Assembly (NCBI GenBank): GCA_017436285.1
Contig: JAFSDL010000024.1
Coordinates: forward strand, 1-55,703
Source of the DNA: Clostridia bacterium
Lineage (GTDB): Bacteria; Bacillota; Clostridia; Oscillospirales; Acutalibacteraceae
Direction: 5' to 3'
Length of the DNA: 55,703 bases
A program made the translations under genes and the position numbers. The notes beneath the pieces are model-generated. The model made no database searches, was not told where the DNA came from, and saw only the letters and a list, made by a program, of their open reading frames with translations. Of the stretch, positions 1,370-39,816 are shown piece after piece (within the stretch, counting starts at the first letter, position 1; each line of letters opens with the position of its first letter).

Positions 1370-1381
1370 CATTATAATTAG

Positions 1382-1550
1382 GAATTCGAAATTCGAAATT
1401 CGAAATGTCGGGTCTGCGACGCGATTATAATTATAAGCAAACCGCAACTTTTTCTTCTGAATTTATAATCATAAGAAACAATTGATAGAGCGGAAAAATG
1501 TTGTGGTTAGCGAAGCTTCCCATTCATTTCGAATTCCGAATTCCGAATTT
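1382..1550. repeat. Foldback of 7-bp repeats (TTCGAAA / TTCCGAA) around a ~115-bp core
   Basis: Three TTCGAAA heptamers at 1385-1405 face three inverted copies (TTTCGAA, TTCCGAA, TTCCGAA) at 1527-1547. The core holds the 16-mer AGCGAAGCTTCCCATT at 1509-1524, whose reverse complement recurs at 4298-4313 beside a different heptamer array. No open reading frame of note lies inside. It looks like a non-autonomous foldback element. It fills the gap between the tyrS promoter and the ribU promoter. Confidence 0.75.
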
Positions 1551-1554
1551 TATA

Positions 1555-1583
1555 TTGACATCATATAAAAAATGGAATATTAT
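1555..1583 (+). promoter_or_regulatory. Promoter of the FMN riboswitch-ribU transcript
   Basis: TTGACA at 1555-1560 is followed by TATTAT at 1578-1583 with 17-bp spacing; a better TATAAT at 1581-1586 would have 20-bp spacing. It lies about 10 bases before the riboswitch, as expected for transcription starting at the aptamer. Confidence 0.7.
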
Positions 1584-1593
1584 AATAGTACGA

Positions 1594-1700
1594 AACTTCA
1601 GGGCGGGGTGCAATTCCCCACCGGCAGTAAAGTCTGCGAGTCTTATGACTGAACAGGTGAAATTCCTGTACCGACGGTATAGTCCGGATGAGAGAAGATT
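1594..1700 (+). ncRNA. FMN riboswitch (RFN element)
   Basis: The conserved RFN blocks are present in order: AGGGCGGGGTGCAATTCCCC, then CCGGCAGTAA, then TGCGAGTC, then GGTGAAATTCCTGTACCGAC, then GGTATAGTCCGGATGAGAGA. The closing P1 stem pairs CTTC with GAAG. This aptamer binds flavin mononucleotide and turns off riboflavin genes when FMN is abundant. An intrinsic terminator follows before ribU, so control is probably by transcription attenuation. Confidence 0.97.
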
Positions 1701-1734
1701 TCAGATGATTTGTTCATAATTGAAACCTTTAATT

Positions 1735-1766
1735 TTCGCCCTGAGTCTTTCGGGGCGATTTTTTTA
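1735..1766 (+). terminator. Attenuator terminator of the FMN riboswitch
   Basis: CGCCCTGAG and TTTCGGGGCG form a nine-pair stem with two G-T pairs, and a run of seven T follows. It sits between the aptamer and the ribU ATG, the expected place for an FMN-dependent OFF switch. Confidence 0.85.
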
Positions 1767-1783
1767 TTGAAAGGTGTGTTTTT

Positions 1784-2353
1784 ATGAAAAACAAATCAAA
1801 TCTCACAAGCAAACAGAAGCTTCAAAGACTCACAACTGCAGGTGTTTTAGCGGCACTTTCTCTTGTTCTTATGGTAACCATAAGGTTTCCGATTTTTCCC
1901 TCTGCAGCCTTCTATGAAATGGAATTTGCAGATGTGCCTATATTGGTTTGTTCTGCAGTTTTAGGGCCCGTATATGCCCTTGTGAGCCTTTTTGTTGTTT
2001 GCCTTGTGCAAACCCTTACCGTAAGCGCTTCAAGCGGTATAATCGGCTTTCTGATGCATTTCCTGTCATCAGGATTAATGATATTAACCCTTTATTTCAT
2101 AAAAAAGAAAATAAGCGGTATCAAGGGTGCAATTGTTTCAGGCATCTGTGGTGTTATTGTTGTTGTGCTTGTTATGATACCGATGAATATCTGGTTAACA
2201 TCTGTGTTTATGAATCTCGATTTTAGTGCATTTATAAAAGGCTTTTTAGGTGTGTGCGTTGCATTTAATCTGATTAAAGCAGGCGGTAATGTGCTTGTAT
2301 ATAACATTATTGCACCTGTGGTTCTGAAGGAGTACAGGAAGTTATTTAAATAA
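1784..2353 (+). CDS. ribU: Riboflavin ECF transporter substrate-binding subunit RibU
   Basis: A 189-residue membrane protein of the ECF S-component type, with about six hydrophobic segments. The first carries the Ala-rich helix LTTAGVLAALSLVLMV that typically contacts EcfT. With the shared EcfT/EcfA1/EcfA2 energizing module, which is not in this window, such proteins import riboflavin. The FMN riboswitch directly upstream makes riboflavin the expected substrate. AAAGGTG precedes the ATG. No further gene follows in this transcript before the repeat region. Confidence 0.9.
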   Translation: MKNKSNLTSKQKLQRLTTAGVLAALSLVLMVTIRFPIFPSAAFYEMEFADVPILVCSAVLGPVYALVSLFVVCLVQTLTVSASSGIIGFLMHFLSSGLMILTLYFIKKKISGIKGAIVSGICGVIVVVLVMIPMNIWLTSVFMNLDFSAFIKGFLGVCVAFNLIKAGGNVLVYNIIAPVVLKEYRKLFK

Positions 2354-2358
2354 TTTAA

Positions 2359-2494
2359 AGTCGCCAGTCACCAGTCTCCAGTCGCCGGAATTGTAACAAC
2401 TGTTGTATTCTTCTCAATTTATTTCAGATAAAATATTAAGAGGAAATAAGTTGCTGTTACAAAAACTGGTAGCTGGCAGCTGGCGACTGGCAAC
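2359..2494. repeat. Foldback of 7-bp repeats (AGTCGCC type)
   Basis: Four heptamers AGTCGCC, AGTCACC, AGTCTCC, AGTCGCC at 2359-2386 face four inverted heptamers ACTGGTA, GCTGGCA, GCTGGCG, ACTGGCA at 2465-2492. Just inside, TTGTAACA (2391-2398) pairs with TGTTACAA (2455-2462). The whole 136-bp stretch can therefore fold on itself. It starts six bases after the ribU stop, so it may also end ribU transcription. Confidence 0.75.
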
Positions 2495-2511
2495 TATTTT
2501 TATAAACTCCC

Positions 2512-2540
2512 TTGACAAAACCCTATAAAATTAATACAAT
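2512..2540 (+). promoter_or_regulatory. Promoter of the ACP-like gene and proS
   Basis: TTGACA (2512-2517) and TACAAT (2535-2540) with 17-bp spacing, about 40 bases before the ACP-like start. No second promoter is visible before proS, so the two genes probably share this transcript. Confidence 0.75.
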
Positions 2541-2579
2541 TTATAGGTTAAATCTTCAAGTTGCATTTCGGAGGTTATT

Positions 2580-2810
2580 ATGGTTTTTGAAAGACTTAAG
2601 AAAATAATCTGTGAGTATATTGAAATTGAGGATAATGAATTTGTTGCAGAATTATCATTTGTTGAAGATTTCGGTTTTGATGAACTGGATATGGCTGATT
2701 TATCAATGGATGTTGAAGATACTTTTGAGATTGAGGTAACCGAAGAGGCTCTTGAACAACTGGAAACAGTCGGTGATTTGGTAAAATTTATTGAAAATAA
2801 TATAAGATAA
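2580..2810 (+). CDS. Acyl-carrier-protein homologue lacking the phosphopantetheine serine
   Basis: A 76-residue acidic protein that matches ACP along its whole length: helix I ([15 protein letters not shown]), the [12 protein letters not shown] turn, helix II ([14 protein letters not shown]) and the [12 protein letters not shown] end. In ordinary ACPs the turn reads GADSLD and the Ser carries 4'-phosphopantetheine. Here the codons read GGT TTT GAT GAA CTG GAT, giving GFDELD, so Ser is Glu and the protein cannot be loaded in the usual way. It has a strong GGAGG site and lies 16 bases before proS. By inference it is a binding or regulatory protein that has lost carrier function. Its partner is unknown. 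Confidence 0.8.
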
Positions 2811-2826
2811 TAAAGAGGAAGAAAAA

Positions 2827-4266
2827 ATGGCAGAACAGAAAAAAATGGTTGAAGCAATCACCTCTATGGAGGTTGATTTTGCTCAATGGTACACAGATGT
2901 AGTTAAAAAAGCAGACCTTGTTGACTATTCAAGCGTTAAGGGTTGTATGATTATTCGTCCCTATGGCTATGCTATCTGGGAAAATATTCAGAAAATTCTT
3001 GATACAAGATTTAAAGAATTAGGTCACGAAAATGTTTATATGCCTATGTTTATTCCCGAAAGCCTTTTGCAGAAGGAAAAGGACCACGTTGAAGGCTTTG
3101 CACCTGAGGTTGCCTGGGTAACACACGGCGGTAGCGAGGAGCTTGAAGAAAAGCTTTGTGTAAGACCTACCTCTGAAACACTTTTCTGTGAGCATTATGC
3201 AAAAATTATTCAGTCACACAGAGATTTGCCCAAGCTTTATAATCAGTGGTGCAGTGTTGTTCGTTGGGAAAAAACAACCCGTCCCTTCCTCAGAACAAGA
3301 GAGTTCTTGTGGCAGGAGGGTCACACGGTTCATGCAACTGCAGAGGAAGCAATTGCTGAAACTGAGCAGATGCTTAATGTTTATGCAGATTTCTGCGAAA
3401 AATCACTTTGTATGCCTGTTGTTAGAGGTAAAAAGACTGATAGCGATAAATTTGCAGGTGCAGAAGCAACCTATGCTATTGAAGCACTTATGCACGATGG
3501 TAAGGCTCTTCAGGCTGCAACATCTCACTATTTCGGTGATGGCTTTGCAAGAGCATTCAATATGACATATCAGAACAAGGAAAACAAGCTTACTTATGTT
3601 CATCAGACGTCCTGGGGATGCACAACCCGTCTTATCGGTGCGCTTATTATGTCACACGGTGACGATAACGGTCTTGTTCTTCCTCCCGATGTTGCTCCCA
3701 TTCAGGTTGTTATTCTTCCCATTGCTCAGCATAAGCCCGGTGTTCTTGATAAGGCATCTGAGCTTCGTGACAGACTTTCCAAGAGCTTCAGAGTTAAGGT
3801 TGACTCTTCTGATAACTCTCCCGGTTGGAAGTTTGCAGAATATGAGATGAAGGGTGTTCCTGTTCGTCTTGAAATCGGTCCGAAGGACATTGAAAATAAC
3901 CAGTGTGTTCTTGTCAGACGTGATAACAGAGAAAAGCTCTTTGTTTCTCTTGATAATCTTGAAGAAAGCCTCAACGCAGTGCTTAAGGATTATGCAGAGG
4001 GTATTTATAACAAGGCTCTTGCAAACCTTGAAAAACGCACATTTGCTTGCACAACAATTGATGAAATCAATGCAAAGCTCACTGAAAACGGAGATGGCTT
4101 TGTTAAAGCTATGTGGTGCGGTGAAGAAGAATGCCAGGATAAGGTTAAGGAGCTTACAGGCGTTGGCTCACGTTGTATTCCCTTCAATCAGGAAAGCCTT
4201 TCTGATACCTGTGTTTGCTGTGGCAAGCCTGCAAAGCAGATGGTATATTGGGGAAAAGCTTATTAA
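2827..4266 (+). CDS. proS: Prolyl-tRNA synthetase (short, archaeal/eukaryote-like type)
   Basis: Class II synthetase of 479 residues that attaches proline to tRNA(Pro). It lacks the inserted editing domain of the long bacterial type and ends in an aromatic WGKAY-type tail, as in the ProRS type 3 group. Motif 2 is around [20 protein letters not shown]. Motif 3 and the anticodon-binding domain follow ([14 protein letters not shown]). Near the C-terminus a Cys group (CGEEEC, CVCCGK) suggests a zinc site. AGAGGAAG precedes the ATG. The heptamer repeat starts at its stop codon. Confidence 0.96.
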
Positions 4267-4313
4267 GTTGCAAGTTAAAAGTGGCAAGTGGCAAGTTAAT
4301 GGGAAGCTTCGCT
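4265..4313. repeat. Heptamer array (AAGTTGC type) with a shared 16-bp tail
   Basis: Five consecutive 7-bp units, AAGTTGC AAGTTAA AAGTGGC AAGTGGC AAGTTAA, begin inside the proS stop codon (4265-4299). They run into AATGGGAAGCTTCGCT (4298-4313), which occurs in inverted orientation at 1509-1524 inside the first heptamer element. Confidence 0.75.
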
Positions 4314-4366
4314 TCCAAACATTATAATTCCCACGCTCACAAAAAATTTATATTTGATTTTAAAGG

Positions 4367-4395
4367 CTCGGAACGGTAGTTCCGGGTCTTTTTTT
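4367..4395 (+). terminator. Terminator after proS
   Basis: CTCGGAAC and GTTCCGGG form an eight-pair stem around GGTA, followed by TCTTTTTTT. Confidence 0.8.
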
Positions 4396-4489
4396 GTAAA
4401 AAATTCGAAAGTGGGTTGCAAAAAAAATTCTGTGATTTATAATATAAACAGAACAAATGTTTGTGTGCGGAACGATATGTAAGTGTAAC

Positions 4490-4787
4490 GCGAAGCCTTA
4501 TCCCTCTTTTTTCGTGTAACGAAAAAGGAGGGGGGACCACCCTTGGCTTTTATATATATTACTTATAAATAAATTTCGTGGTGTTTGTATTTTATATTGA
4601 TATGTTGCATCGGGGTGGTGGGTGGTACAAAGCTATGGAAGAAATAAAAGAGTACCACCCACCATTCCGTCAGAACTGTTATCAAAGATAAAGTAATCTA
4701 CTCGTAATTTCTATAAATGAGGCTTTACCTATTGAGGAATGGTCCCCCCTCCTTTTTGCTGAAGCAAAAAAGAGGGATAGGCTTCGC
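4490..4787. mobile_element. MITE-like foldback element, ~298 bp, no ORF
   Basis: Terminal inverted repeats of about 48 bp (4490-4538 and 4741-4787) share GCGAAGCC, TATCCCTC and GGAGGGGGGACC. They differ mainly in the small internal hairpin loop. Nested inside is a second inverted repeat, TGGTGGGTGGTAC (4616-4628) against GTACCACCCACCA (4652-4664). No coding frame is evident and no clear target-site duplication was found by eye. A related piece lies at 7274-7395. It fills most of the 593-bp gap between proS and the replication gene pair. Confidence 0.65.
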
Positions 4788-4811
4788 AAAAATTAAGAGA
4801 AAGAAATCGTA

Positions 4812-4831
4812 AGGTACAGGCTTGCCTGTAC
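4812..4831. repeat. Short perfect palindrome before the replication gene pair
   Basis: GGTACAGGC and GCCTGTACC are separated by TT, ending 28 bases before the GTG start at 4860. It could be a protein-binding operator or an mRNA hairpin near the ribosome site; its function is not evident. Confidence 0.5.
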
Positions 4832-4859
4832 CACAGAATAACTAAAAAGGAGGAGTTAA

Positions 4860-5636
4860 GTGAAGGAAAAAAATAGCTTTATTGTCTATTATGAATGGGA
4901 GGAAATGTTTGGCTATATGTCTGATAAGCAAACTGCAGATATGCTGAGGGCAATGTTCGGTTATGCAAAAAGAGGGGATCTGCCTGAATTTTCAAACCCA
5001 TTGTTAAATTCAAATTTCTGTGTTATGAAATATGCTATTGATAGGAATAACGAGAAATACAAATCTAAATGTGATAAGAATAAAGAAAACGCAAAATTAA
5101 GATGGGAAAAGGAAAAATGCAATGGCATAAAAAATATGCGAACGCATAAAATTTATGCCGATAATGATAATGTAAATGATAATGAAAATGATAATGTAAA
5201 TGAAAATGAAAATGATAATGTAAATGAAAATGAAAATGATAATGTAAATGAAAATGAAAAGTATAATATATCAATATCTTCATCACCTGCGGTGACGGAT
5301 AGTAAGCCTTCAAGCACCTATTCTGAAGATTTTTTGGAGTTCTGGAGTGCTTATCCTAAAAAGGTTGGCAAGGGTGCGGCATATAAAATATTCAACAAGC
5401 TTAAATTAACTAAAAAAGAAAAATCCGCTATTCTTACTGCTCTTGACTGGCAGAAGAAAAGCGACCAATGGGTAAGGGATAACGGTCAGTTTATACCATA
5501 TCCTTCAACCTATCTTAATCAAAGGCGTTGGGAGGATGAGCCACAGAGCCTGTTCTGTGGTGATATAACCGACCCCGACAGATACAAAGAGGATGAAGAG
5601 GATTATTTTGATTTCGGAGGTGCTTATGGAGAATAA
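4860..5636 (+). CDS. DUF6291-type phage replication protein with Asn/Asp-rich linker
   Basis: A 258-residue protein. Residues 1-80 (FIVYYEWEEMFGYMSDKQTA onward, then IDRNNEKY) fit the DUF6291 family found in phage and integrated-element replication modules. Residues about 103-133 are four 8-residue units, DNVNDNEN then DNVNENEN, encoded by 24-bp DNA repeats. The C-terminal part (FWSAYPKKVGKGAAYKIFNK, ending YPSTYLNQRRWEDE) is the domain common in phage replisome organizers. It starts with GTG behind AAAAGGAGGAG. It overlaps the DnaC-like gene by 11 bp, so the pair probably loads a helicase at an element origin. This is most likely a prophage or mobile-element remnant. Confidence 0.75.
   Translation: MKEKNSFIVYYEWEEMFGYMSDKQTADMLRAMFGYAKRGDLPEFSNPLLNSNFCVMKYAIDRNNEKYKSKCDKNKENAKLRWEKEKCNGIKNMRTHKIYADNDNVNDNENDNVNENENDNVNENENDNVNENEKYNISISSSPAVTDSKPSSTYSEDFLEFWSAYPKKVGKGAAYKIFNKLKLTKKEKSAILTALDWQKKSDQWVRDNGQFIPYPSTYLNQRRWEDEPQSLFCGDITDPDRYKEDEEDYFDFGGAYGE
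5166..5258 (+). repeat. In-frame 24-bp tandem repeat in the replication protein
   Basis: About four units of GATAATGTAAATGAAAATGA plus four further bases, encoding DNVNENEN. The unit length is a multiple of three, so copy-number change would keep frame and alter only the linker length. Confidence 0.85.
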
Positions 5637-6426
5637 TGTTTGTTCAGTTTGCGGTAAGGAAAAGGAAAGCAGATTAATACCATACATTAATAAGGTGATG
5701 TATATTGACTGCCAATGTGAAACAGAATTAAAGAAAAAAATTGAAACGGAAAAAAGAGAAAAAGCCATTAATACTTACATAAGAAAAAGAATTAAAAAAA
5801 GCGGTGTTTTGTTAAGAGAGGAAAACGCATTTTTTGATAATCTTATTGTTGATGAAAATAACAGCAAAGCAGTTGACGGAGCAAAATATATCTGTTCGTT
5901 AATGTTAAACGGCGATACATCTCAAGATAAAAACGGTTTAATTTTATCGGGCAACAGAGGAAGCGGTAAAACATATATCGGGGCTTCAATTATTAATGAG
6001 TATAACAGAAATGAGAAATTTAACGAGTATGTTATTAATGAAATTATCAAGGCACATGATAACGGATTTATTGAAGATTTGGGAATTGAAATCAATTCAA
6101 ATTGCCGATTTATAAAGGAAAAGGATGCAATAGCTCTGTCTGAAAAATATAATTACAGAGAAAATACATCACCTATCGATGAATTTAAAAATGCAAAAAT
6201 TCTTGTTGTGGATGATGTGGGCTCTTCCTATGGTGACAGCAAAAGAATTATGTCAATTTTATTCGATTTGTTTGATTATCGCTATAGTCAACAGCTTTCA
6301 ACAATAATTACAACTAACCTTTCAAAAGAGGAATTACACGCTTATTTAGGGGAAAGAACCTTTGACAGACTTCGTTGCTGTTGCCATTACATAAAATTAG
6401 CTTCACCAACAAGTCGAAGAAAATAA
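5626..6426 (+). CDS. DnaC/IstB-like AAA+ helicase loader
   Basis: A 266-residue ATPase that should load the replicative helicase. The N-terminus has a Cys group (CSVCGKEKE, then DCQCE) likely to bind zinc, as in DnaC/DnaI loaders. The Walker A motif is GNRGSGKT, Walker B is ILVVDDVGS, and the sensor region is STIITTNLS followed by ERTFDRLR with an arginine finger. An in-frame ATG exists at 5593, but the ATG at 5626 is chosen because GGAGGTG lies four bases before it and the overlap with the upstream gene is short. It forms a two-gene module with the DUF6291-like protein. Confidence 0.85.
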   Translation: MENNVCSVCGKEKESRLIPYINKVMYIDCQCETELKKKIETEKREKAINTYIRKRIKKSGVLLREENAFFDNLIVDENNSKAVDGAKYICSLMLNGDTSQDKNGLILSGNRGSGKTYIGASIINEYNRNEKFNEYVINEIIKAHDNGFIEDLGIEINSNCRFIKEKDAIALSEKYNYRENTSPIDEFKNAKILVVDDVGSSYGDSKRIMSILFDLFDYRYSQQLSTIITTNLSKEELHAYLGERTFDRLRCCCHYIKLASPTSRRK

Positions 6427-6427
6427 A

Positions 6428-6483
6428 GCAGATAGTAAATAGCGGATAGCTAACAGCTATTTGCTATCAGCTATCCGCTAAAT
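6428..6483. repeat. Eight-unit heptamer array forming a hairpin between convergent genes
   Basis: Units GCAGATA GTAAATA GCGGATA GCTAACA GCTATTT GCTATCA GCTATCC GCTAAAT run without a break in the 7-bp period. TAGCGGATAGCT (6440-6451) and AGCTATCCGCTA (6469-6480) pair perfectly. It lies between the DnaC-like stop and the dapB stop, so it may end transcription from both sides, although no clean T run follows. Confidence 0.75.
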
Positions 6484-6485
6484 AA

Positions 6486-7238
6486 TTATGAATTCACAAG
6501 GTCGCTCATATTGTATATTCCGTTTTCTTTTCCATTTAGGAATGCTGCAGCATTAACTGCACCCTGAGCGAAAATTGCTTTTGAACGGGCACTGTGAGAA
6601 AGCGTAACAATTTCGTCATTACCTGCGAAAATAACCTGGTGCTCACCAACAATTGTTCCGCCACGAACTGAGTGAATACCGATTTCATTTGAATGGCGTT
6701 TTTCTCTTTTTGAGAAGCGGTCATATTCAAAATATGCATCAGGCATCATTTCCTTGACTGCGTTGCCAAGCATTATTGCAGTTCCGCTTGGTGCATCAAT
6801 CTTCTGATTGTGGTGTGCTTCAATAATTTCAACATCAAAATCAGAGCCGAGAATTTTAGCGGCAACCTTTGAAAGCTCACAAAGAAGGCTTACTCCTAAT
6901 GACATATTATATGAGAAGAAAACTGCAATTTTCTCTGAAGCCTTTTCAACCTCTTTAATCTGCTCATCGGTAAGACCTGTTGTTGCTAAAACTACTGCAG
7001 TATTGGTACTAATTGCAAAGCTGAGCATATCTGAAAGCAAGGCAGGGTTTGAAAAGTCGATAATAACATCTGCCTTGACATTAACCTCGCCATAATTCTG
7101 AAAAACAGGGAAGCCCAGGCTACTGTCATCAACAATATCAATACCTGCAACAATTTCGCAATCTTTTCTTGTGTTAACAACAGAAATAACATTTCTGCCC
7201 ATTTTGCCACAGCAACCGCTTAAAAGTATTCTTGTCAT
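6486..7238 (-). CDS. dapB: 4-hydroxy-tetrahydrodipicolinate reductase
   Basis: Reduces the DapA product with NAD(P)H in the diaminopimelate/lysine pathway that supplies peptidoglycan cross-links. The N-terminal nucleotide motif is LLSGCCGKMGR. The catalytic signature EAHHNQKIDAPSGTA holds the His pair and Lys. The C-terminal GEHQVIFAG strand is typical. The start at 7238 (MTRILLSG) has AAGG nine bases upstream; an in-frame ATG three codons earlier is less well placed. It is the last gene of asd-dapA-dapB, separated from dapA by a repeat-filled gap. Confidence 0.95.
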   Translation of the reverse strand: MTRILLSGCCGKMGRNVISVVNTRKDCEIVAGIDIVDDSSLGFPVFQNYGEVNVKADVIIDFSNPALLSDMLSFAISTNTAVVLATTGLTDEQIKEVEKASEKIAVFFSYNMSLGVSLLCELSKVAAKILGSDFDVEIIEAHHNQKIDAPSGTAIMLGNAVKEMMPDAYFEYDRFSKREKRHSNEIGIHSVRGGTIVGEHQVIFAGNDEIVTLSHSARSKAIFAQGAVNAAAFLNGKENGIYNMSDLVNS

Positions 7239-7273: not shown

Positions 7274-7395
7274 ACTATCCCTCTTTTTTTCGAAGAAAAA
7301 AGGAGGGGGGACCGCGTCAGCGGTGGGTGGTACAACCTCAACATTAAAGTAAAAGTATTGCAACCACGATACCGCGTTAGCGGTGGGTGGTACAA
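7274..7395. repeat. MITE-related repeat in the dapA-dapB gap
   Basis: TATCCCTC, a T-run/A-run hairpin and GGAGGGGGGACC (7277-7313) copy the arm of the 4490-4787 element. They continue into CCGCGTCAGCGGTGGGTGGT ending in ACAA. The same GCGGTGGGTGGTACAA ending recurs at 7380-7395 as a direct repeat. It occupies nearly the whole 159-bp gap inside an apparent operon. Confidence 0.7.
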
Positions 7396-7397
7396 AA

Positions 7398-8288
7398 TTA
7401 TATCATATTATGCTTAACTAAAACATCTCTCAGAAGCTTCTCATTAGCTTCGTTAAGAGGGGAAAGAGGCATTCTGCATCTGCCCACATCAATACCCATC
7501 ATACACATTGCCGCTTTAACGGGTATGGGGTTAACATCGCAGAAAAGAGCATTGCACAAGTCAATATATTTTAACTGTAATTTTGCACTTTCCTTAGTTT
7601 TACCCTCAATACCAAGCATAGCAATATCGTGAGCAAGCCTTGGTGCGATGTTTGAAAGAACAGAAATAACACCCTTTGCGCCCAAGGCAGTGAAAGCGGT
7701 AATCTGGTCATCATTACCCGAATAGAAATTAAGGCTATCACCACAAAGAGCAACTGTTTTAGCGAATTGAGAAATATCACCGCTTGCTTCCTTAGCACCG
7801 TTTATAAGCGGGAGCTTTGATAACTCAAGATATGTTTCAGGCTTGATGTTAACGCCTGTTCTTGAAGGCACATTGTAAAGAATAATGGGTGTTGAAACTC
7901 TCTTTTCAATATATGTGTAGGACTCGATAAGTCCGTCCTGAGATGCTTTGTTGTAATAGGGGGTTACCATTAAAAGTCCGTCAACGCCACAGGCTTCAGC
8001 ATCGTTTGAAAGCTTGACTGCGTGAACAGTATCATTACTGCCTGTTCCTGCAATAACGGGAATTTTGCCATTTGTAACTCGGACTGCAGTGCGGATTGCT
8101 TCAACGTGCTCATCATAAACAAGAGTTGATTTTTCACCTGTTGTACCGCAAACAACAATTGCATCTGTTCCGTTCTGAATCTGGTTTTCGATTATTTCCT
8201 CAAAGAGTGGGAAATTGATTTTTAAATCCTCGTCTTTAAATGGTGTTACAATAGCAACGCCTGCACCTGTGAAAATAGGCTTTTTCAT
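7398..8288 (-). CDS. dapA: 4-hydroxy-tetrahydrodipicolinate synthase
   Basis: Condenses pyruvate with aspartate semialdehyde, the committed step to diaminopimelate and lysine. The 296-residue TIM barrel has GTTGEKSTL (substrate Thr pair), LYNVPSRTGVN (catalytic Tyr) and GAKEASGD (Schiff-base Lys). AAAACCTCCG on the plus strand corresponds to a CGGAGG ribosome site before the ATG. It lies 47 bases after asd and before dapB. Confidence 0.96.
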   Translation of the reverse strand: MKKPIFTGAGVAIVTPFKDEDLKINFPLFEEIIENQIQNGTDAIVVCGTTGEKSTLVYDEHVEAIRTAVRVTNGKIPVIAGTGSNDTVHAVKLSNDAEACGVDGLLMVTPYYNKASQDGLIESYTYIEKRVSTPIILYNVPSRTGVNIKPETYLELSKLPLINGAKEASGDISQFAKTVALCGDSLNFYSGNDDQITAFTALGAKGVISVLSNIAPRLAHDIAMLGIEGKTKESAKLQLKYIDLCNALFCDVNPIPVKAAMCMMGIDVGRCRMPLSPLNEANEKLLRDVLVKHNMI

Positions 8289-34464: not shown

Positions 34465-37400
34465 TTAATATTTATCTTTAATTGTCAAGCCCTTTGTGTT
34501 GTAATAGCTGTTTGTTGTGCCCTTAAATGCCCTGACTGTATACTTATAAGTTGTACCCTTCTTTGCGGTTTTATCGGTATAATACAAGGTTGTGCTATCA
34601 TTAACAGTTCCGATTTTCTTCCAATCTCCCGAGCCTGTTTTTCTGTATACATAATACCCTTCTGCACCGGTTACCTTACCCCATGTAAGCTTAACACCCT
34701 TTGTTGTTGAGGTTACAGATTTCAATGCAGGTACTGCAAGATAACGAAGGTAGATACCATCAGAAGAAATTGAAGATTTACCTGTACCGTCATAAGCTTT
34801 TACTGTATAAACATAAACCTTACCCTTTGATACCTTCGTATCTTTATAGGAAACGGTTGAACCATTCTTGATAGTTGCAACTCTCGTCCAGGCGTCTGCA
34901 CCATAAAGCTTGCGGTAAACATAGTAGCCATCCGCACCACTTACCTTACTCCAAGTGATTTTTAAACCACCTGTTGCATTAGCGATTTTTTTAAGCTTGG
35001 GTGTTTCAACATATTTTACACTTAAGCCTGTTTTATTGTAGCCACTCAGCCCTGCTTCATTTTTTGCTTTTACTGTGTAGTAATATGTTGTGCCCGATTT
35101 TGCGGTTTTATCTGTAAAATAGCTGTTCTTTGTGGAATCAAGATATTCAAAGCTACCACCCTTGACCTTGCGATAAACTCTGTATGCATCTGCACCTTTA
35201 ACTCTGCGCCAGGTAATTTTAACGCCATCGGTTGTGTTGTAAACCTTTTTCAGAACAATATTATCGCATTTAAGCTGAGGTATTGTCTCTGATTTGAAAT
35301 ATTTATAGCAATATGAACATCTTTGATATTTATGACCGGCTCTGTAAACGGTTGCCTCCTGACTGACAACCCATTCTGTATTATTATGCTTACATTCAAT
35401 TTCAAATTTGAAGCTATTAGCATCAGCGTAATTCTGCGCTTCGGTATTTTTATCACCAATTATTTTGAAATTTGAAATTCGGGAATGCTCAAGACCATAA
35501 TAGGTAGAGTAATAACCAAAAGCACGAGTGCCGATTTCAGTAACATTTTCACCAATTCTTACTGATTTCAGATTTTCGCAATGATAAAAAGCCTCATCAC
35601 CAACATTTTTTACACCATTACCCAACTCCACAGTTGATAAATTCAGGCATTTCTTGAAGGCAGATTTGCCAATGCTTTCAACATTATCGTGCAATTTTAC
35701 TGAATTAATATTTATTTGATAAAAGGCATAATTATTAATTTTTGTAACACTTTTCGGAATAACAACATCTGTTACCAAAGAATTACCAACATATAAATTG
35801 GCAGAGCAGGATAACATAGCGCTCCTGAAATCAATATTGCACCAGGTTGTTAAATCGGGAATAAAAACCTCTGAAAGCTTAGTACATGATGAAAGTGCAC
35901 TTGTTCCTATTGTTCTGATAGTTTGGGGAAGAATAAGAATTGTTAAACCATAGCAATCATAAAAAGCACTGTCGGCGATTGCTTTAGTGCCTGCCTTTAC
36001 CTCAAACGGACCTGTTAATGCCTTAACTCTGATAAGGTGGCTACCAATATAAAGACCTTCACCATCCCAATTCGCCTCATTGTTATAGTAAGCTGTACCG
36101 CTTATCAACCCTGAGCCGATTTTCGTAACAGAATCAGGAATAAATATTTCTGCAAGGGCTTCACAATATACTAAAGCACCGGATTCCAATTTTGTTACTG
36201 AATCAGGTATTTGGATTGAGGTGAGGCTTGTGCAATAGGCAAATGCATAGCTATTTATATCTGTAACACCATCAGGAATATCAATTGTAGCTAATTTACT
36301 ACAACCATAAAATGCATAAGAGTCAATTATTTTAAGATTATTACTTAATTTAACTGATGTAAGCCCTGTGCAACCCTTGAACGCATCCTCCCCGATTTCT
36401 GTTACTGAATCGGGCATTGTGTAGGTTGAGCCACTTTTGTTAATAGGATAATCTATCAATAATGATTTATCTGCATTAAACAATACTCCGTCAACAGAGC
36501 TGTATGTGTTGTTATCTTCTGCCACAGTATATGCCATAAGATTCAAACAACCACGGAAAGCAGCTTCGCCTATGCTTTCAACATTTTCGGAAAGATATAC
36601 AGATTCAAGCTTTTCACAATTCTCAAAGGCTTGCCTGCCGATAGATGATACTTCTTCAGGTATTTCAATTGTAACAATGTTCGTGCAACCCAGGAAAGAG
36701 TAATCACCTATTGATTTTACATTTTTACCGATTTTTACTGACTCAAAGCTTGAGCATTTATAAAAAACATAGCTATTGATTTTTGTTGCGGTATCCGGAA
36801 CAACCAAGTCCTTGATTTCACTGCCGTTCAGGTATAGTTTCGCACCGTTGTTCAATGGATTTGAGGTATTGTAAATAAAGGTTGACTCACACCAAGCCTT
36901 TAAATCAGTAATATTAACCTCTTTGATGCTTTGGCATTTTTCAAATGAACGATACCCCCATTTTTTCAAGGAAGCAGGTACATATATTTCAGAAACAGAA
37001 GTACAACCCAAAAACGCGCCTTCCCCTATTTCTGTTAAACCATCAGGAAGCTTGATTGATGTCAGATTGCTACACTCTGCAAAGGTCCAATTACCGATTG
37101 CAGATATTCCCTGCGGTATTTCCAATGAATTGATTCCCGAGCAATAACGGAATGCGCTGTTACCTATATAAGTAACTCCTTCGGGAATAGAAAGAGAACT
37201 GAGCTTGCTACAATTATAAAAGGCGTTGTTTCCGATATATGTTACACCATCAGGTATATTTATTGATGTAAGTGACTTGCAATTACTGAAGGCATAATTT
37301 CCTATTGTTTCAACAGAATCGGGAAGCTTTATTGTCTTTATATGACTAAAGCTTAATCTTCCGCTATTTATACTTGTAACACCATCAGGTACAACAACAT

Positions 37401-38457
37401 CCTCAACTAAAGCATCATTCAGATATAAGCTGCCACCCGTGGGCGTGCCACCTTCAATATTAAACCATGCATTTAAATCGCTTATATAAACCTTACTGAC
37501 ATCGGAAAGAGTAAAAGCACCGGTGCCAATTCTTTTAACACTTGCAGGAATTCTTACTGAGGTCATAAACTCACAATTATAAAAAGCCTGGTCTGCAACA
37601 AGCGTTGTGCCATCCTTAATACTACAAGAGCCTTCAAACTCAATATTCAGTCTTATAAGGAATTTACCGATATAAAGTGCGCCGTTTTTCCAGTTGCTTT
37701 GATTGGAGTAATAACCTGTACCTCGAAAAGCTCTATACCCAATATGCTCAACACTGTCAGGAATATTGATTAAAACAAGATTAGGACAGCCTGAAAAAGC
37801 ATATTCTGCAATAACCTTGGTTCCATCCTTTATTGTATAAGCACCTGTTAATTGATTAGCTTTGATAAGATATTCACCATAATAGAGAACCTCATTCTCC
37901 CAATTTAATGAATCATTATAAAAGCCGGTGTTGTTAAATGCGTTTTCTTCTATACGGGTAATACCCTTCGGTAGCTTGATTTCATTAAGACTTGTGCAAT
38001 TGCGAAAAGCAGTCTGACCGATTACCCTTAAGCCTGCAGGCAATATAACATTTTTAAGGCTACAGCAATCATAAAAGATGCTTGCACTCAGAGTGGTTAT
38101 GCCATTACCCAAATCAACAGAAACAAGATTTTTGCACTTGTTGAATACACGATAACCTGTGCTTGTAACACTATCAGGAATAACAACTGACGTAATATTG
38201 TTACACCCCTCAAAAGCATAGCCCTTAATCTGAGTTACGGGAAGACCATTATATGTTTCAGGAATAATAATTTCCCCTGTTGCAGTTGGTTTACAATCAG
38301 CAACTGAATAACCTACTGTTTCCTGATAACCGCCACCAGAAGTAACCTTTTCAAATGTCAGATATTCTGTGTCGGTAGCAGCAACATTAACAGGTGCAAC
38401 CGTTAACACGCCTGCAACAATAACTAAAGCCAAAAAAAGACTGATTATTTTTTTCAT
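34465..38457 (-). CDS. Exported BspA-type leucine-rich-repeat protein with FnIII-like C-terminus
   Basis: A 1330-residue protein with a signal peptide (MKKIISLFLALVIVAGVLTV, cleavage near Ala-Ala). Residues about 40-1000 are LRR_5 repeats of ~23 residues with the pattern IGxxAFxxCxxLxxVxIPDSV. Some repeats are replaced by longer LYxxxxLI-type inserts. A CxxH...CxxC segment follows (ECKHNNTEW, QRCSYCYK). The end has three ~85-residue FnIII-like units, each with KITWxxVxGADxYxVYRK. No LPXTG, dockerin or S-layer motif is visible, so it is secreted or attached by other means. Such proteins often bind host or fibre surfaces. The start has AGAGG. Confidence 0.9.
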   Translation of the reverse strand: MKKIISLFLALVIVAGVLTVAPVNVAATDTEYLTFEKVTSGGGYQETVGYSVADCKPTATGEIIIPETYNGLPVTQIKGYAFEGCNNITSVVIPDSVTSTGYRVFNKCKNLVSVDLGNGITTLSASIFYDCCSLKNVILPAGLRVIGQTAFRNCTSLNEIKLPKGITRIEENAFNNTGFYNDSLNWENEVLYYGEYLIKANQLTGAYTIKDGTKVIAEYAFSGCPNLVLINIPDSVEHIGYRAFRGTGYYSNQSNWKNGALYIGKFLIRLNIEFEGSCSIKDGTTLVADQAFYNCEFMTSVRIPASVKRIGTGAFTLSDVSKVYISDLNAWFNIEGGTPTGGSLYLNDALVEDVVVPDGVTSINSGRLSFSHIKTIKLPDSVETIGNYAFSNCKSLTSINIPDGVTYIGNNAFYNCSKLSSLSIPEGVTYIGNSAFRYCSGINSLEIPQGISAIGNWTFAECSNLTSIKLPDGLTEIGEGAFLGCTSVSEIYVPASLKKWGYRSFEKCQSIKEVNITDLKAWCESTFIYNTSNPLNNGAKLYLNGSEIKDLVVPDTATKINSYVFYKCSSFESVKIGKNVKSIGDYSFLGCTNIVTIEIPEEVSSIGRQAFENCEKLESVYLSENVESIGEAAFRGCLNLMAYTVAEDNNTYSSVDGVLFNADKSLLIDYPINKSGSTYTMPDSVTEIGEDAFKGCTGLTSVKLSNNLKIIDSYAFYGCSKLATIDIPDGVTDINSYAFAYCTSLTSIQIPDSVTKLESGALVYCEALAEIFIPDSVTKIGSGLISGTAYYNNEANWDGEGLYIGSHLIRVKALTGPFEVKAGTKAIADSAFYDCYGLTILILPQTIRTIGTSALSSCTKLSEVFIPDLTTWCNIDFRSAMLSCSANLYVGNSLVTDVVIPKSVTKINNYAFYQININSVKLHDNVESIGKSAFKKCLNLSTVELGNGVKNVGDEAFYHCENLKSVRIGENVTEIGTRAFGYYSTYYGLEHSRISNFKIIGDKNTEAQNYADANSFKFEIECKHNNTEWVVSQEATVYRAGHKYQRCSYCYKYFKSETIPQLKCDNIVLKKVYNTTDGVKITWRRVKGADAYRVYRKVKGGSFEYLDSTKNSYFTDKTAKSGTTYYYTVKAKNEAGLSGYNKTGLSVKYVETPKLKKIANATGGLKITWSKVSGADGYYVYRKLYGADAWTRVATIKNGSTVSYKDTKVSKGKVYVYTVKAYDGTGKSSISSDGIYLRYLAVPALKSVTSTTKGVKLTWGKVTGAEGYYVYRKTGSGDWKKIGTVNDSTTLYYTDKTAKKGTTYKYTVRAFKGTTNSYYNTKGLTIKDKY

Positions 38458-38509
38458 ACACTTGCCTCTTTTCATTGTTAAATGCAAATTTTAAAATATC
38501 TTTAAATTT

Positions 38510-38869: not shown

Positions 38870-38892
38870 TATTCTTTTCTCCTTTTTAATAA

Positions 38893-39816
38893 TTATTGAA
38901 TATTGAATTTTTCTTTAACTGCCTGAGTGAAAGCATACATCTGCTCAATTTCAAGCCTTCTGCTTTCTGTAAGCTCTGCGGGGTTTCTTGTTCTTGTATT
39001 GATACCGATATCAACACCATCAAGGCTTACATAGTATTTTGCATTTACAGGGTAGCACTGACACTCTGTAACAGAAAAATAACCAATCATATCCTGCAAG
39101 AACTTTGCCTTCTCTTCATCGCCATCTTTATGAGCCTTAAAAAGCTCAACATAAAGCTCGGGGTGGAAATTAGCCATAACACCCGAGTAGCCTAAAGCCC
39201 CCATTTTAATGCTTTCAGAAAGAGTTGCAGCATTAGCATTGAAAAGCTTAACAGATGTTCCGTTAATAATATCAAGCTTTTCCTTAAGCTCAGCAAGGCA
39301 GCAACATGTATCCTTAATAAACTGATATTTTCCGCTTTCAACCATTTTCTTCAAAACATATGGTGAAATTTTGCGTTTATAGGGATAGGGACATTCATAA
39401 ACGCCTAAAGGAATTTCGGGAAGCTGTGATGTTACATATTCCATATTTTTTAAATAAACATCATCATCCTCGTCCTCTTTTGCAAATCTGTTGGAAATGA
39501 AAACATAAGCATCAATGCCACATTCAATAAATGCCTTTGCTTCCTTAATCTGAGTATCTAAATCATTTGCAGTATGACCTGAGGCCACAATAGACATACC
39601 CTCAGGCTTGTTTGCCATAATGAATTTTAAAAGCTCAAGGCGTTCCTCAAAGCTTAAAAAGAAAATTTCACTGCTCTGGCAGATAGCAAAAATACCGTCA
39701 ACGCCTTTTTTTGCATACCAGTCAATTAAAGCCTTAACACCGGCATAGTCAATTTTATTATCGTCAGTAAAGGGTGTTATCATCGTTGGATAAACGCCAT
39801 TGTTGATTTCTTTCAT
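38893..39816 (-). CDS. DapA/N-acetylneuraminate-lyase superfamily aldolase
   Basis: A 307-residue Schiff-base TIM-barrel protein, distinct from the true dapA at 7398-8288. The N-terminus (GVYPTMITPFTDDNKIDYAG) and the Lys in YQFIKDTCC are typical. The usual YNxP motif is YECPYP and the GTTGE loop is CQSSEIFF, so the substrate is probably neither aspartate semialdehyde nor clearly sialic acid. Likely a pyruvate-type aldolase or lyase of sugar acids. The start at 39816 has AGGAAG upstream; an ATG three codons earlier also exists. Confidence 0.8.
   Translation of the reverse strand: MKEINNGVYPTMITPFTDDNKIDYAGVKALIDWYAKKGVDGIFAICQSSEIFFLSFEERLELLKFIMANKPEGMSIVASGHTANDLDTQIKEAKAFIECGIDAYVFISNRFAKEDEDDDVYLKNMEYVTSQLPEIPLGVYECPYPYKRKISPYVLKKMVESGKYQFIKDTCCCLAELKEKLDIINGTSVKLFNANAATLSESIKMGALGYSGVMANFHPELYVELFKAHKDGDEEKAKFLQDMIGYFSVTECQCYPVNAKYYVSLDGVDIGINTRTRNPAELTESRRLEIEQMYAFTQAVKEKFNIQ

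Follow-up and report, generated by a model that had tools for sequence, protein, structure and literature searches.

The stretch analysed here, hereafter the window, is 55,703 nt of DNA from a member of the Acutalibacteraceae deposited as Clostridia bacterium (GenBank assembly GCA_017436285.1, contig JAFSDL010000024.1, positions 1 to 55,703), which is contig C17 of a draft genome of 2.05 Mb in 63 contigs with 83.7% completeness. Tandem Repeats Finder and a scan for self-matches at a lag of 7 bp located six segments of heptamer arrays within 6 kb of it, at 1376-1406, 1526-1549, 2359-2386, 2466-2495, 4265-4296, and 6427-6480. The arrays are spread among tyrS, ribU, an acyl-carrier-like gene, proS, and dapB (some of these names are presumptive and come from reading the sequence), and in that region lag 7 alone behaves in this way; elsewhere in the window there is one weak lag-7 segment (38873-38911). 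The arrays form four loci, numbered 1 to 4 in the order of their positions. A sequence-only reading had placed three of them within six bases of a stop codon, and this was confirmed: array 2 starts 5 bases past the ribU stop, array 3 overlaps the last base of the proS stop, and array 4 directly follows the stop of the gene at 5593-6426, while array 1 lies away from any stop. An FMN (flavin mononucleotide) riboswitch precedes ribU at 1590-1703; it was the sole match at the gathering score in an Rfam scan of the window, and the arrays correspond to no RNA family known to that database.

The strict 7-bp step claimed for these arrays is genuine, far above chance, and due to a common cause. In a first sample of 335,591 bp, consisting of the window and 19 stretches picked by contig number, 35 lag-7 segments were found versus none in the shuffle, with the window itself supplying 6 of the 35. 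The raw count was 38, from which three contigs reading N throughout were removed (they add 3 to the count for each lag and for the shuffle alike). An enlarged sample of 696,714 bp, which is enriched because its 20 further stretches were picked at already listed arrays, gave 94 array segments at lag 7, 45 at the harmonic lag 14, and 1, 2, 14, 4, 19, 5, 4, 20, and 2 at lags 4, 5, 6, 8, 9, 10, 11, 12, and 13, respectively. Relatives of the same genus (331,245 bp in 20 stretches, five of them picked near known matches) gave 17 segments at lag 7 versus 0 to 10 at the other lags from 4 to 13. Nor are the arrays identical fixed sequences everywhere, as both units and words vary in a comparison made between species, not between strains of one species. 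A looser array finder returned 221 arrays, compared with 159 when the sequence was reversed; its output was therefore filtered more stringently, which left the 105 strict arrays considered below.

Class-1 ends and their hairpins

Class 1, the best-defined kind, includes arrays 1 and 3 of the window and accounts for 35 of the 105 strict arrays. A class-1 end normally consists of five heptads (35 nt) with the consensus A-R-T-K-n-n-R, followed by a small hairpin and a ATTATAAT-like centre. A profile built from 42 sequences, including window 4266-4326 and 1376-1434, matched the window at 4266-4326 (E 1.9e-14), at 1376-1434 on the plus strand (E 3.1e-8), and at 1509-1550 on the minus strand (E 0.0038). 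A class-1 element of 181 nt lies at 1376-1556, between tyrS and the FMN riboswitch of ribU. Its left five-heptad end (1376-1410, plus strand, 35 nt) reads AATTAGG, AATTCGA three times, and AATGTCG, and then enters a GGTCTGCGACGC hairpin; its right heptad end (1522-1556, minus strand) reads AATTCGG twice, AATTCGA, and AATGAAT, followed by GGGAAGCTTCGCT. The right edge of this element directly abuts the TTGACA promoter box of the riboswitch. Array 3 is a single class-1 end (4266-4326, plus strand) with the units AGTTGCA, AGTTAAA, AGTGGCA, AGTGGCA, and AGTTAAT, followed by a GGGAAGCTTCGCTTCC hairpin and then AACATTATAAT; no downstream partner was recognised for it. The view that the words of the different arrays are unrelated does not hold for arrays 1 and 3, which share their heptad phase relative to related cores and match one profile.

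The cores behind class-1 arrays include GGGAAGCTTCGCTTCCAAACATT, GGTCTGCGACGC, GGACCTGCGGTC, GGTGCTGCGCAC, and GGGCAAAGCC, among others, with ATTATAAT-like DNA behind them. Since the phase must not be chosen from the repeats, we anchored the ends on the cores alone, using no array information, and 49 of 64 core matches passed a lag-7 filter on the preceding 35 nt. The 15 failing matches are mostly chance matches of the shortest core pattern, and a few look like weak members (e.g., a core of the GGGCAAAGCC type having 12 matches). The first four units of the core-anchored ends number 196, of which 179 have A as their first base and 176 have T as their third. The mismatch rates between adjacent units at heptad positions 1 to 7 were 0.05, 0.47, 0.10, 0.44, 0.16, 0.29, and 0.16, respectively. 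Positions 2 (G/A) and 4 (G/T) toggle even between neighbouring units, and positions 5 to 7 form a word common within one array, with positions 5 and 7 varying much between arrays. Under a stricter lag-7 filter, 36 of 44 ends carry A[AG][TC] in all five units, and a sixth outer unit is present in 2 of 44. An alignment of the 42 ends from this genome spans 62 columns, with one row shifted.

The unit number in the 35 class-1 strict arrays is five in 29, four in 4, six in 1, and seven in 1, so class 1 does not show the freely varying unit number of slippage. The sequence-only reading had suggested a shared mechanism of creation, such as slippage. The shared cause stands, but growth in place by slippage is not supported, because the class-1 phase is fixed by the downstream core, positions 1 and 3 are nearly invariant, and five units prevail.

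Other species of the genus keep the same pattern. In 46 ends from their genomes, collected at 20 bits or more with a profile of the array and the first three bases, position 1 is A in 179 of 184 units, position 3 is T in 181 of 184, and position 4 is G or T in 183 of 184. At a lower threshold, a Markov null gave 2 ends versus 52 in the other genomes. The words there include AATTGAA, AGTGCTG, AATGCAG, and AATTAAA. An A-R-Y skeleton was considered for every array and rejected as a general rule: it fits 90 of 108, but an estimated ~60% of random heptamers would also start A-R-Y over 14 choices of phase and strand, and for this reason only the core-anchored phase is relied on.

A perfect stem of at least 3 bp lies close behind the array in 85 of 88 class-1 ends (42 from this genome and 46 from others), and three ends are without one. 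The hairpins of the 88 ends take 26 distinct perfect forms in which stem changes are compensated, such as GTC-TGC-GAC, GACC-TGC-GGTC, GTGC-TGC-GCAC, GACT-TGC-AGTC, AAC-TGC-GTT, AAGTCC-TGC-GGACTT, GGC-AAA-GCC, and GGAAGC-TTC-GCTTCC. Some ends of this genome were gathered via known hairpins, so that the 42 lean towards hairpins; among the unselected 105 strict arrays, a stem of at least 4 bp is found on the inner side in 30, compared with 5.3% in shuffles.

Minimal class-1 copies occur at six unrelated places, with 112 nt at L015:10302-10413, L093:15475-15586, and L162:4075-4186, 113 nt at L079 and L160, and 118 nt at L090:11745-11862. These sizes are within the limit of ~500 bp for miniature inverted-repeat transposable elements (MITEs), and nested or composite elements reach 554 nt (23 pairs). 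In the predicted fold of the minimal copies, the two arrays form an outer stem that encloses two or three inner hairpins. Six pieces from the window and its genome folded better than shuffles, with z-scores from -2.8 to -4.9; the z-score was -4.84 for window 1376-1556, -4.13 for 2352-2495, and -4.91 for 6420-6486.

Dispersal, position, and distribution

Each of the 105 strict arrays was oriented by the strand on which it starts A-R-Y, and neighbours less than 700 bp apart were compared. There were 23 inward pairs, 1 outward pair, and 18 pairs in the same direction. Because inward pairs dominate over outward ones, the arrays are mostly the outer ends of something. Taken as terminal inverted repeats, ends of 35 nt go beyond the 4-30 bp given in a review of MITEs (PMC10969869). 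In 11 of the 23 inward pairs, both ends carry words of one class, versus 3.6 expected (permutation p ~1e-4), which shows the ends to be related even though about half of the pairs have unlike words.

The elements are dispersed. The class-1 profile gave 52 matches, all within own-genome sources (46 sources searched), and the whole genome of 2 Mb holds at least 91 class-1 ends. A prophage-like contig (L015), with phage portal and capsid genes, carries 12 strict arrays, whereas no lag-7 segment was detected in its three nearest phage relatives (protein identity of 91, 90, and 83%), and 25 related IMG/VR phage loci (205,716 bp) contain one lag-7 segment of score 14 or more, in L197. One gene junction measures 11 nt from stop to ATG in the phage loci L181 and L182 and ~165 nt, counted by hand, in the prophage-like contig, where the element begins on the last base of the stop codon. 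Heptad arrays also lie within an open reading frame (ORF) of this contig (L015:8684-8757). Array-free junctions are found in same-genus relatives of the window as well, between tyrS and ribU in G007 and G009, and between ribU and the acyl-carrier-like gene in G007, G009, G006, and G018. Arrays follow proS in 3 of the 9 plus-strand proS loci that were readable (G000, G002, G005).

Copies at different sites show which parts of the elements change. The interiors of L085:7139-7288 and L097:10142-10289 are 90.7% identical while their word classes and end types differ, and parts of this interior recur in L096 and L082. Another pair (L015:6678-6871 and L097:15881-16074) is ~90% identical, but its left arrays have 5 and 10 units and show parallel changes in three of them; AATTCGA occurs three times in one copy, and its counterpart carries AATTCGG/AATGCGG. 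Like interiors with unlike ends indicate that the ends change faster than the interiors. Ends are also found stacked in a single direction, as in three left ends ~53 nt apart in the relative G012 (L294:12087-12230) and two right ends at L083:10975-11085. For the replacement of words, unequal exchange between ends or nested insertion would be the simplest guess.

The position of the arrays relative to genes was determined for the 89 that have genes on both sides and lie outside ORFs. For 57 of these, the gene end that the outer edge faces is a 3' end (median 34 bp), and for 32 it is a 5' end (median 80 bp). A hairpin with a T-tract lies directly before the array in 19 of 105 arrays, compared with 39 of 5000 random positions and with 5 of 735 positions 20-140 nt further out from the arrays. 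A run of at least four T ends within 3 nt of the array in 31 of 105 versus 210 of 5000. In the other species, a terminator is found at 7 of 46 ends (one of them being the hairpin of a neighbouring element) versus 36 of 5000. That the outer edges peak so sharply where the T-tract ends suggests targeted insertion.

Class 1 is nearly genus-specific. Of 21 relatives in the genus, 15 had 15 or more profile-matched ends, three had 1-3, and G004, G011, and G016 had none; a ceiling of ~90 scored candidates limits these counts. Fifteen genomes of the same family had 0-11 matches, and 23 genomes from other families of the order had 0-3, with the exception of G056, which had 46 weak matches (best E 3.9e-6); since 94 kb of G056 contained one weak end, without the class-1 hairpin, it is not counted as class 1. 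In a phylum set of 299 genomes, including this one, three others had 1-3 weak, mostly partial matches. One exact core was found in 17 stretches from five metagenome-assembled genomes (MAGs) labelled Clostridia, Clostridiaceae, Clostridiales, or Oscillospiraceae, four of which come from cow or yak gut or rumen, judged by their names; no heptads precede the core in some of these. Two Clostridial MAGs (L158, L159, L165, L169, L172) have the GGGAAGCTTCGCTTCC core without heptads, preceded by a run of short hairpins of the TTGCCTTCGGCAA type. Phages were considered as carriers of the cores and rejected, as two core patterns had no match in IMG/VR.

Possible origins of the arrays

In our judgement, arrays 1 and 3 of the window are best explained by a genus-wide MITE-like family with a new kind of end, with a probability of roughly 0.75. 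The arrays would be the outer ends of short, non-autonomous elements spread through the intergenic DNA of the genus, and in class 1 two inward ends, each with five heptads and a hairpin of 3-6 bp, would meet at a ATTATAAT-like centre. We infer that a trans-acting protein moves these elements, reading the end unit by unit via the A and T held in each heptad and recognising the hairpin by its shape. Words and stem letters would then be free to drift, provided that changes are matched among the units of one end and between both sides of a stem. The insertion sites would lie directly downstream of stem-loops that have T-rich DNA after them, chiefly terminators. The further idea that the system is read by a repeated minimal code (A and T in each of five heptads) and by hairpin shape, not by a fixed sequence, is tentative and on balance rather unlikely. 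If it were true, words and stems could be freely replaced and a single enzyme could move many elements that look unrelated, with stem-loops and the T-rich DNA behind them guiding insertion. On this view, the heptamer arrays known from Cyanobacteria, Bacteroidetes, Xanthomonas, and Beggiatoaceae might also mark the ends of comparable elements.

Several observations weigh against a MITE-like family. The midpoint of 11 of the 105 arrays lies inside an ORF of at least 110 aa, and the A-R-Y skeleton is weak evidence outside class 1, where the 70 remaining arrays are less uniform and share no single profile, their link to the model being orientation and position. Word classes differ between the ends in 12 of the 23 inward pairs, and the 18 pairs stacked in one direction are unexplained by simple insertion. 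A clear target-site duplication was found in 1 of 39 paired elements, a 15-bp flank repeat at L083:7054-7190; the flanks of the other 38 match each other no better than those of different elements. The three enzyme families searched do not track the elements: among 22 genus genomes, Y1_Tnp was matched in 9, RVT_1 in 4, and DDE_Tnp_1 in 2, and the corresponding numbers for the 16 genomes that have 15 or more ends are 7, 3, and 2. No Y1_Tnp match was found in the element-rich genomes G001, G003, G005, G006, G008, G009, G014, G019, and G021, several of which are incomplete. Likewise, no transposase was present among eight proteins scanned between distant inward arrays. These eight proteins, together with those of window genes 4860-5636 and 5593-6426, comprise phage portal, capsid, tRNA synthetase, nuclease, and DUF (domain of unknown function) proteins, and include no transposase.

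Several candidates for a mobiliser were rejected. Inward arrays 0.7-4.5 kb apart, considered as autonomous copies, enclose ordinary genes. At L088:5440-5958, an IS200-type Y1 transposase adjoins an array; visual inspection shows it to have its own palindromic ends, and its family does not track the elements; reverse transcriptase and IS4/IS5-type transposases do not follow them either.

Growth in place is one alternative. Polymerase slippage would favour a 7-nt step and each array would arise from its own seed, in line with the polymerase-set 7-nt step of Mrazek and co-workers (as cited in PMC4692102) and with the over-representation of heptamers in many bacteria (PMC4692102). Growth of this kind would account for the word common to the units of one array, for the copy pair with 5 and 10 units and parallel changes in three of them, and for the 4-13 units of the 70 strict arrays outside class 1. 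In class 1, however, the core sets both phase and length, inward pairs surround interiors that are repeated at other sites, and the junctions of relatives are free of arrays. As the general cause, slippage is thus quite unlikely, but the 70 strict arrays outside class 1, and the word common to all units of an array, may still result from slippage or unequal exchange.

The arrays could also be functional RNA or DNA structures at gene 3' ends, serving stabilisation, bidirectional termination, or protein binding, with pairing conserved and not sequence. The excess of outer edges towards 3' ends (57 versus 32), the folding of the six pieces, and the compensated stem changes all agree with such a role. 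However, other species are without the elements at the same genes, copies insert into a prophage and beside one another, and the two arms differ in word class in about half of the pairs (12 of 23). Survivors of random insertion would also sit between a stop codon and the next gene, so that this placement can be explained by survivorship, and we consider a structural function improbable. The elements could, finally, move by reverse transcription, with priming at terminators or at the 3' ends of transcripts and with a copying step that makes the heptads. Such a route would fit the outer edges directly behind terminator T-tracts and the single 15-bp flank duplication; group IIC introns target terminators. 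RVT_1, however, is present neither in this genome (83.7% complete) nor in 18 of the 22 genus genomes searched, and it occurs in only 3 of the 16 genomes having at least 15 class-1 ends, which makes this route very improbable.

Repetitive extragenic palindromic (REP) elements, which are served by Y1 transposases known as RAYTs, are abundant short intergenic palindromes; the elements described here differ in that Y1_Tnp does not track them, with a match in 7 of 16 element-rich genus genomes and none in 9. Bacterial MITEs, including RUP, BOX, and QMITE (PMC10969869), resemble them in being short, dispersed, and intergenic, with inverted ends and mutual insertion, and the minimal copies here are likewise without coding capacity. 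In contrast to those MITEs, the ends here are five heptads with interchangeable words, next to hairpins whose sequence varies. Most of the elements lack a target duplication, and no parent transposase was found among the few proteins and families searched. The BrickBuilt MITE of Porphyromonas gingivalis also contains tandem repeats and has one copy behind a Rho-independent terminator, but its repeats are internal units of 23 nt with terminal repeats of ~12 nt (PMC4596501), whereas here the repeats are the ends.

Intergenic heptamers are known from other bacteria. GGGAATC of Xanthomonas and GGGGA(C/T)T of Nostoc occur mostly in four units with some convergent pairs, the pairs and the four-unit mode being described for Xanthomonas (PMC4692102). 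They differ from the present arrays in having one G-rich word and 2 to 26 units and in being discussed as quadruplexes, and the portion of that paper drawn on here describes no core, hairpin, or insertion. The TAACTGA repeats of Beggiatoaceae, Cyanobacteria, and Bacteroidetes also form short intergenic sets, and relatives without them have shorter intergenic regions; unlike the present arrays, they use one word, lie mostly just upstream of start codons, and were proposed as binding sites of a translational regulator (PMC4679880). In six 50-kb stretches of Trichormus variabilis plasmids, we found 9 lag-7 segments (0-3 at other lags from 4 to 13), some of them at stop codons. Short arrays in these stretches lie at L175:16482-16507, L177:41613-41645, L178:40679-40708, and L177:43054-43145, and one is an inverted pair without a core. 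No class-1 profile match was found in the six stretches, and the resemblance of their words is within chance. A BLAST search of plasmids with a 41-nt heptamer query found nothing, for which the low-complexity filter is perhaps responsible. As the sequence-only reading had supposed, no description of a Clostridial case, or of heptad-ended elements in general, was found in the open-licence literature.

The excess of heptamers in bacteria was thus already known, and the present data give heptamer arrays a concrete anatomy in one genus: the elements are dispersed, their ends have a near-fixed number of five units, their hairpins are compensated, and they often sit behind terminators. Heptamer arrays have long been catalogued as simple repeats, and it can now be tested whether others of them are element ends. 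How such ends are recognised is a puzzle, because the period and two bases of each unit are retained and the remainder changes. At least 91 class-1 ends in 2 Mb is a density sufficient to shape gene ends and the upstream flanks of promoters.

Other arrays and repeats

Five units are commonest among the 70 strict arrays outside class 1 (32 arrays), and for these arrays the element reading is less certain. They lead into AGCTTCGCAAG, AATTGTAACAAC, or a TAAGGTACAGGCTTGCCTGTACC palindrome, or have no core, and window arrays 2 and 4 belong to such related but less well defined kinds. Array 2 is an element of another class (2359-2495) with AGTCGCC-type ends and the interior AATTGTAACAAC ... GTTGCTGTTACAA, and has look-alikes at L097:11790-11929 and L015:10676-10819. 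Array 4 (6427-6480) is a core-less inverted array of AGCAAAT-like words that forms a hairpin between the stop of gene 5593-6426 and dapB. Long or mixed arrays may be the abutting ends of several elements. In L082, AATGCGG-type units are followed by out-of-phase AGTCGCC-type units, four times in tandem, and at L082:9862-10256 a unit of ~116 bp, with two heptad arrays and a palindrome, is present in four tandem copies.

Further repeats occur between genes. A second intergenic module of the form TATCCCTCTTTTTT...AAAAAGGAGGGGGGACC... with GGTGGTGGGTGGTACAA lies at window 4499-4780 and 7275-7400, and this module recurs within longer heptad-ended elements (e.g., L097:12917-13334). The palindromic module GTAAGGTACAGGCTTGCCTGTACCACA is found at window 4826-4853 and at many other loci (e.g., in L004, L007, L082, and L085), where it is often flanked by heptad ends. 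A repeat of up to ~280 bp with ~94-98% identity (L020:1680-1972, L014:1-278, L087:1-243, L009:1-197, L012:1-200, L008:1-157) sits at contig ends and therefore probably causes assembly breaks.

Arrays 3 and 4 are separated by a DUF6291 gene and an IstB/DnaC-like ATPase gene (4860-6426). A similar pair is present in the relatives G020, G017, and G014, where it is placed differently relative to tyrS, ribU, and proS. The DUF6291 coding region contains an in-frame tandem repeat of the AATGAA type (window 5160-5267; 6, 12, and 24 bp) with a lag-6/12 signal. Diverged repeats also lie at window 35518-38205, within a 1340-aa ORF on the minus strand (34465-38487) that probably encodes a repeat-rich surface protein.

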